Shown: positions 27,247-28,125 of the stretch, piece after piece
Layout: each line of letters starts with the position of its first letter
Position numbering within the stretch: position 1 is the stretch's first letter
Source of the DNA: Thermoactinomyces vulgaris
Lineage (GTDB): Bacteria; Bacillota; Bacilli; Thermoactinomycetales; Thermoactinomycetaceae
DNA: 64,000 nucleotides
Direction: 5' to 3'
Assembly: GCF_003688725.1 (NCBI RefSeq)
Contig: NZ_REFP01000007.1
Span: forward strand, 602,900 to 666,899
Position numbers and translations under genes: made by a program
The notes under the pieces: generated by a model
The model's database searches: none
What the model was told of the DNA's origin: nothing
The model's input: only the letters and a program-made list of their open reading frames with translations

Positions 27247-27373
27247 AAATGAAGTTTATTCGTTACCCTTTCCTTGAAACTTTCGACGGGGAAGGGGTGT
27301 TTTTTATTTAAAAGATACAGAAAATTTGGTAAAATATAACAAAAAGAATGGCATAAAGAAGGGGATATCCGGA

Positions 27374-27643
27374 TTGAAAAAGAGGTGGATCACCGCAAAG
27401 GAAATTAATCAGTTTTGTTATTGTCCCGAGCAATGGAGGCTGGCCAAATTGCACCGTCAAGGGCTGGTCGAAGCCGATGAACAAAAGTTGAAAACCCAAA
27501 AACGGCTCTTTCAAAAAGGGAAGCGTTACCACCGGAAGAAAGCCGTTTTGGTGTGGGTGAAAACGAAAGGGACGGATTGGGCAGTGGCGGTGTTGCTTGT
27601 CGTGATCCTGTTGTTTGTGATTTGGACGGTGATGAATGCTTGA
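27374..27643 (+). CDS. N-terminal half of a split Cas4/RecB-like nuclease with membrane helix
   Basis: An 89-residue, strongly basic protein. ITAKEINQFCYCPEQWRL (6-23) matches the Cas4 N-terminus with its first Fe-S cysteine (Cys17 before PEQW; Cys15 nearby), and LFQKGKRYHRKK (45-56) matches the G-x3-H motif whose His (53) is a metal ligand in RecB/Cas4 nucleases. Residues 68-87 are a hydrophobic helix, after which the protein ends. A TTG start follows AAGGGG by 9 bases. The stop overlaps the start of the next gene (TGATG). It has no nuclease core of its own and very probably pairs with the next product. Confidence 0.75.
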   Translation: MKKRWITAKEINQFCYCPEQWRLAKLHRQGLVEADEQKLKTQKRLFQKGKRYHRKKAVLVWVKTKGTDWAVAVLLVVILLFVIWTVMNA

Positions 27644-28125
27644 TGGCCATGTTCCTCTCTGTTTTGCTGGTTTTCCTGTTGATCTTTTTACGGTTTTTCT
27701 TAAAATCCAAAAGAAGTTTGGTGTATTCAGACGCAACCGGTGCGGGGAAAGTTCTGGTCAACCGAAAATGGGGTATCCGGGGCAAGCCCGACGAGATCTG
27801 GAAAATGAAGGACGGAACTTATTTCGTGGTGGAATACAAATCAGGAATGTTAAAAAGGACACGCCCCTATGACGGCGACCGGTTGCAATTGGCTGCTTAT
27901 TTCATGCTCGTGGAGGAAACGTATCAAGCGAAAAAAATCCGGGGGGAAATCCGCTATCAAAATCGGGTGTGCGAGGTGGAGTGGACTCCGCAATTAAAGG
28001 AACAATTATTGACCGTCATCAAACAGATGAGGGAAGTGGAACAGACGAATGAAACCCGGGTGAACATTTATTTGCCAAAATGCCGGCAATGTGAATTCTA
28101 CAAAGTTTCCTGCACGAAAGTGTAG
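27643..28125 (+). CDS. C-terminal half of a split Cas4/RecB-like nuclease (PD-(D/E)XK) with membrane helix
   Basis: A 160-residue protein that begins with a membrane helix (3-20) and a basic stop (KSKRS), then a PD-(D/E)XK core: GKPDEIWK (Asp50), VVEYKSG (Glu64, Lys66), and the RecB-type DRLQLAAY (Gln82). The end KCRQCEFYKVSC gives Cys147, Cys150 and Cys157 in Cas4 spacing. Cas4 uses one N-terminal and three C-terminal cysteines for a 4Fe-4S cluster; the first lies on the preceding small protein. Start and stop overlap by one base and there is no strong ribosome site, so translation is probably coupled. No cas genes or CRISPR array are in the window. Confidence 0.8.
   Translation: MAMFLSVLLVFLLIFLRFFLKSKRSLVYSDATGAGKVLVNRKWGIRGKPDEIWKMKDGTYFVVEYKSGMLKRTRPYDGDRLQLAAYFMLVEETYQAKKIRGEIRYQNRVCEVEWTPQLKEQLLTVIKQMREVEQTNETRVNIYLPKCRQCEFYKVSCTKV

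Follow-up and report, generated by a model that had tools for sequence, protein, structure and literature searches.

A Cas4-type nuclease probably encoded as two membrane-anchored proteins by a conserved gene pair of Bacillota and plasmids of other phyla

We propose that two short, overlapping genes form a conserved operon for a single Cas4-type PD-(D/E)XK nuclease that is made as two polypeptides, each anchored in the membrane; their translation would be coupled, and they would assemble in the membrane. We hold this reading with a probability of roughly 0.77. The genes, referred to as gene 1 and gene 2, lie in the window, that is, the whole stretch of 64,000 nucleotides that was analyzed, and their features are collected in Table 1. 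The earlier note on this DNA had described a Cas4/RecB-like nuclease that is split between the two genes. Everything it had read residue by residue was confirmed, including the gene limits, the CPEQW and G-x3-H motifs of gene 1 (C17-P-E-Q-W and G49-K-R-Y-H53), Asp50, Glu64-x-Lys66, Gln82 and the C-x2-C-x6-C motif of gene 2, the two helices and the TGATG junction.

Table 1. Features of the gene pair, in positions of the window
Feature	Position	Strand	Remarks
Promoter-like site (extended -10), 5' of gene 1	27307..27335	+	Consensus match only
Gene 1	27374..27643	+	89 aa, TTG start, TGA stop; N-terminal third of a Cas4-type nuclease and C-terminal membrane anchor (predicted); kept in 26 aligned pairs
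Cys17 codon, gene 1	27422..27424	+	Putative N-terminal Fe-S ligand; equivalents SSO0001 Cys32 and Pcal_0546 Cys64
G49-x3-H53, motif I, gene 1	27518..27532	+	His equivalents SSO0001 His62 and Pcal_0546 His94
C-terminal membrane helix, gene 1	27572..27634	+	Hydrophobic segment, residues ~67-87; topology comparison
TGATG stop-start overlap, one shared base	27641..27645	+	Likely translational coupling point; ATGA or short-overlap junctions in most relatives
Gene 2	27643..28125	+	160 aa, ATG start; N-terminal membrane anchor (predicted) and C-terminal two-thirds of a Cas4-type nuclease
N-terminal membrane helix, gene 2	27646..27702	+	Hydrophobic segment, residues 2-20; topology comparison
Motifs II and III, gene 2: Asp50, Glu64, Lys66 (E64-Y-K66)	27790..27840	+	Asp and Glu equivalents SSO0001 Asp99 and Glu113
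QLxxY motif, gene 2: Gln82-Tyr86	27886..27900	+	Invariant in 26 pairs; alignment to 4ic1
C147-x2-C150-x6-C157, gene 2	28081..28113	+	Three putative C-terminal Fe-S ligands

The division of the domain was apparent from profile searches. Gene 2 matched the Pfam Cas_Cas4 profile only at positions 54-157 of 160 (E 9.5e-11) and TIGR00372 (cas4) at positions 59-177 of 180, with a score above the cut-off; since both matches run only from about position 54-59 to the end, gene 2 alone corresponds to the C-terminal two-thirds of Cas4. Gene 1 of the window, searched by itself against the profiles, matched no family. Its relatives matched TIGR00372 at positions 1-59 (E 5.1e-5) and 1-44 (E 1.8e-4) and PF12705 at positions 1-43 (E 0.0015). 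Judged by these alignments, gene 1 relatives cover the part of the Cas4 profile that is missing from gene 2, and the two genes match adjacent, nonoverlapping parts of it. The solved Cas4 SSO0001 (4ic1) has His62, Asp99, Glu113 and Cys32/188/191/197 as ligands (PMC4176176), and alignment of the gene 2 profile with it brought the GKPD Asp, Glu-x-Lys and Gln into register. When the two chains are combined, RecB motifs I (His), II (Asp), III (Glu-x-Lys) and QhxxY are all present, as is the Cas4 set of one N-terminal and three C-terminal cysteines; the binding of an Fe-S cluster by this set is itself inferred. An AlphaFold2 prediction of gene 2 alone, based on a three-row alignment, was poor (mean pLDDT 49) and was not used for a fold search.

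Comparison of 26 Bacillota pairs left only Y16, C17, Q20, G49, Y52 and H53 fully invariant in gene 1, and D30, G47, K48, P49, D50, E64, K66, Q82, L83, Y86, G101, Y105, C147, C150 and C157 in gene 2. Among these 21 positions are the whole active site, made up of motifs I, II, III and QxxxY, and the four cysteines of the cluster. Because they are invariant over 26 pairs, the motif pattern of the two genes is not a product of chance, and the division of the Cas4-type active site and cluster ligands between two genes, first claimed for the window, holds in distant relatives as well. A complete domain in a single polypeptide, as characterized Cas4 proteins have it, is not found; every intact relative has two genes. 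Purifying selection acts on both genes, with dN/dS between close species of 0.14-0.29 for gene 1 and 0.21-0.24 for gene 2. The distance matrices of the two genes are closely correlated (r 0.98), which shared descent alone could also yield.

The arrangement of hydrophobic and basic residues was equally constant. In all 26 Bacillota pairs, and in the pairs on Bacillus and planctomycete plasmids, the terminal hydrophobic segment of gene 1 follows basic residues and is itself followed by no more than about 11 residues, and gene 2 opens with a hydrophobic segment that precedes basic residues. By the positive-inside rule, the soluble parts of both proteins are predicted to be cytoplasmic. The earlier note had placed them there from the charge pattern of the window, and the same pattern in distant relatives bears this out.

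The split recurs in relatives, which had been named as a check, and it does so in the order of the window, in a second class of Bacillota and on plasmids of other phyla. Our genome search covered a sample of the phylum Bacillota, with one genome per species; other phyla were covered by plasmids, not by chromosomes. The pair is present in 7 of 42 genomes of the order, distributed over three families, and a phylum scan with the gene 1 profile found it in 19 of 37 genomes of the second class. There, gene 2 occurs in 19 of 20 genomes of one family (f123) and in both genomes of another (f103), and gene 1 is intact in 19 of these 21 carriers and has a broken reading frame in L086 and L092. Both of these are draft genomes in which gene 1 is apparently frame-broken in A-rich stretches and gene 2 is intact, which points to sequencing error or homopolymer slippage. 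The pair is near-core in f123. No relative of it was found in viral-contig scans or in a phage collection.

Homologues of gene 2 are carried by plasmids of Bacillus subtilis, of Paludisphaera and Singulisphaera (Planctomycetota), and of Vibrio, Aeromonas, Marinobacter and Pseudomonas (Pseudomonadota), and most are annotated as Dna2/Cas4 or PD-(D/E)XK. A gene 1 homologue lies directly upstream at 10 of 11 inspected plasmid loci (L132, L133, L134, L135, L137, L138, L139, L140, L141 and L142), with an overlap of 4-10 bases or a spacing of a few bases; L136 is the exception, and there it is gene 2 that has degenerated. At L137, L140, L141 and L142, gene 1 is absent from the gene table, which by design does not list every gene. 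On gammaproteobacterial plasmids, gene 1 has no clear membrane helix. The gene 1 partners at L138:2510-2929 and L139:2492-2920 are annotated CFI-box-CTERM and end in a CFI-box domain (NF041770 match), and those at L140 and L141 have a similar look; the CFI-box seems to take the place of the gene 1 membrane helix on these plasmids. Like gene 2, the plasmid genes that RefSeq assigns to the Dna2/Cas4 or PD-(D/E)XK 'family' combine a membrane helix with the active site. Their records give the partner as hypothetical, as CFI-box-CTERM or not at all, and the link between the two is not made. On our reading, some genes filed as complete 'Cas4' or 'PD-(D/E)XK' nucleases are half an enzyme, the partner being a small, often unannotated neighbor.

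Single-gene versions with two central helices, for which a search had been suggested, do exist, one of them in the same genome, and their active site is lost. The genome of the window has a gene (L070:7422-8951, minus strand; G000:C1, about 246.4-248.0 kb) for a single chain of ~509 aa with CPEYW, two central membrane helices and three C-terminal cysteines, and thus with all four cysteines, but without Glu-x-Lys. Relatives of it occur in G005 and G015, and the family is matched by the gene 1 profile (E 1.4e-9) as well as by the gene 2 profile (E 9.5e-10). Since the Glu-x-Lys site is lost, this family is not an active single-gene version. That the natural fusions lack catalytic residues, and so would not be active nucleases, counts against our explanation. 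A further two-helix Cas4-like chain, in G023 (L068:7637-8491), is interrupted by an in-frame TAG that follows the second helix and precedes the catalytic half, and its Glu-x-Lys is gone. A tree built from the gene 2 domain set the canonical soluble Cas4 proteins, which are single chains, apart on a branch of their own (support 93), and the split genes fell on the opposite side together with the degenerate single-chain proteins. A single ancient split followed by re-fusion would agree with this tree, with the reservation that the branches of the fused proteins are long and not placed with certainty. The split would have been refuted by homologues of gene 2 that have a His and Cys of their own and lack gene 1; the only ones are the canonical soluble Cas4 proteins of the separate branch.

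The junction between the genes bears on whether two proteins are made at all. The seven genomes of the order show the TGATG of the window, ATGA overlaps, 5-base gaps, a 34-base gap (L008, with a strong GGAGGAGGAG ribosome-binding sequence ahead of gene 2) and a pair in the same frame with stops between the genes (L006), and all f123 junctions with an intact gene 1 are ATGA. Relative to gene 1, gene 2 is in the -1 frame in most pairs, in frame 0 in L006 and in +1 in L008, L140 and L141. The earlier note had allowed for programmed frameshifting into a fusion; -1 frameshifting or stop-start readthrough would join the two into one chain with a hairpin of two helices, whether or not the separate proteins are made as well. 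The common relative frame at most junctions would suit this explanation, as would a T_TTA_AAA heptamer (TTTAAAA) present in 10 of 26 pairs (L093-L096, L098-L101, L085 and L088), where it stands in slippery register right before the TGA of gene 1 and the ATG of gene 2 that overlaps it. However, all ten belong to f123, the heptamer is absent from the window and from the other 15 of the 26 pairs, the four exceptional loci have a different relative frame, L008 has its 34-base gap and strong ribosome-binding sequence ahead of gene 2, and every gene 2 except the decayed G023 copy has a plausible start of its own. A conserved slippery site together with a constant frame relation, the criterion for programmed frameshifting, is thus not met. 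Frameshifting as a general mechanism was therefore rejected, with frames that vary and a heptamer confined to one family, and we judge it quite unlikely here; lineage-specific frameshifting in f123 is possible. It can hardly be maintained, either, that an ordinary single-chain gene was broken by a recent mutation or by a sequencing error. Such a frameshift would indeed leave two small overlapping frames, and gene 1 is broken within A-rich stretches in two relatives, but the same split is seen in dozens of genomes and plasmids from three phyla, and both genes are under purifying selection. This recurrence excludes the recent frame-breaking mutation that had been left as an alternative, and the prospect that correcting a sequencing error would restore one frame, which would have refuted the split, fails too.

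Two further explanations accept the pair as genuine and dispute its meaning. Gene 2 might work alone, as a nuclease or a DNA-binding Fe-S protein, with gene 1 as a separate small membrane regulator or inhibitor. Most catalytic residues do lie in gene 2, and G029 has a second gene 2 domain without gene 1. Yet the residues that never vary in gene 1 are precisely those Cas4 residues that gene 2 lacks, relatives of gene 1 align to the section of the profile that gene 2 leaves uncovered, both parts are joined in the single-chain relatives, and the extra G029 copy has no membrane helix and looks like a truncated recent duplicate, which makes independent action of gene 2 unlikely. The pair might also be a CRISPR adaptation Cas4 displaced from its array, as gene 2 scores above the NCBIfam cas4 cut-off. 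No Cas1 was found in the genome of the window or in G029, which also carries the pair, however, and because the genome of the window lacks Cas1, the pair cannot be counted as a CRISPR Cas4. In the second class, Cas1 is present, but complete contigs place it far from the pair, and canonical Cas4 keeps to its own branch. The pair does not satisfy the definition of a CRISPR-associated Cas4, which is encoded with cas1/cas2 in an adaptation module, and it does satisfy that of a solo-Cas4, a Cas4 gene outside CRISPR loci. CRISPR membership was rejected on these grounds, Cas1 being absent or unlinked and canonical Cas4 separate, and we find displacement from an array scarcely credible.

We return to the reading of one nuclease formed by two chains, for which we provide a putative mechanism. 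Gene 1 would be a tail-anchored protein that brings the N-terminal part, the first Fe-S cysteine and the motif-I His, and gene 2 would be a signal-anchored protein, with its N-terminus outside, that brings the Asp, Glu-x-Lys, Gln and the other three cysteines. In a single chain, the two helices would form a hairpin between motifs I and II, and the break would then sit in its outside turn. Through the stop-start overlap, translation would be coupled and both chains would be made in about equal amounts; assembled side by side in the membrane, they would jointly complete a single metal site and a single Fe-S cluster. The coupling of translation, the heterodimer, the assembly of the cluster and the nuclease activity are all inferred, without a model of the complex. 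Of the two-chain reading first put forward, the split, the ligand division and the topology are supported, but the physical assembly of the chains is still an inference. Characterized Cas4 proteins act 5' to 3' on single-stranded DNA (PMC3466216, PMC4176176), and by analogy the pair would probably do the same. Some Cas4 proteins are active as nucleases even without the cluster (PMC4176176), so activity is not necessarily under its control. Should the chains come together as inferred, the pair would be an example from nature of an enzyme whose active site and metal cluster are each shared by two membrane proteins.

Known members of the Cas4 family (PF01930 / TIGR00372; SSO0001, PDB 4ic1; Pcal_0546, PDB 4r5q) are one soluble chain, whereas the pair has a break between motifs I and II and gives two proteins, each with a membrane anchor. 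Our literature search, limited to open-licence papers, returned nothing relevant on membrane or split Cas4 and no published description of the pair. AddB is a single large helicase-nuclease subunit and, unlike the pair, has no membrane anchors. Its 'iron staple' nuclease domain resembles the pair in that a RecB-type nuclease is flanked by one cysteine on the N-terminal side and three on the C-terminal side (PMC3466216). Hudaiberdiev et al. 2017 found solo-Cas4 to be monophyletic in most Thermoanaerobacterales (PMC5704561). Like gene 2 of the second class, that group lies away from CRISPR loci and is largely vertically inherited, and we infer that the two are probably the same. The same paper states four cysteines for all Cas4 members and makes no mention of a partner gene, a split or membrane helices (PMC5704561). 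Since genetically tractable strains allow either part to be deleted on its own, the function of solo-Cas4 becomes testable.

As to the biological role, we can only guess that the pair processes or removes DNA at the inner face of the membrane, for example, incoming or transferred DNA, and we put this forward as a doubtful possibility. The genomic context is not constant, so no role is supported by it: the genes that flank the pair in the window, for thioredoxin reductase (upstream) and ribonucleotide reductase (downstream), are no longer its neighbors outside the genus, the FhuF-like, spore photoproduct lyase and polysaccharide deacetylase neighbors are lineage-specific, and a neighborhood comparison of relatives found no constant neighbor that would explain the function. 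Hints to DNA at the membrane are the frequent occurrence on conjugative or mobilizable plasmids, one copy close to traD and another adjoining weakly TraG-like and Replic_Relax genes. A further hint comes from a Synechococcus screen, in which a Cas4-like nuclease lowered plasmid transfer or maintenance (PMC10653904). The near-core status in f123 counts against a pure defence role. We speculate, very tentatively, that the pairs constitute an undescribed cross-phylum family of obligate two-chain membrane nucleases, in which the site and the cluster form only when the separately anchored proteins meet, so that cluster assembly would be the on-switch of an enzyme acting on DNA at or crossing the membrane in uptake, conjugation or their control.

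Some minor observations concern the copies outside the standard arrangement. The single chain of the window's genome (L070) has a C-terminal extension of ~200 aa that ends in a 'LNIASDLATIRA' motif, which is common to an adjoining small protein. In G005 (L069:6566-14703), the paralogue and its small partner lie directly downstream of the type I restriction-modification genes hsdM, hsdS and hsdR, a context suggesting a defence-related inactive Cas4-like protein. G029 has two copies of the gene 2 domain on two contigs (L067:2038-2442 and L066:3588-4355), identical over the matched 104 residues; they adjoin duplicated Replic_Relax and weakly TraG-like genes, and one copy is without the helix and gene 1.
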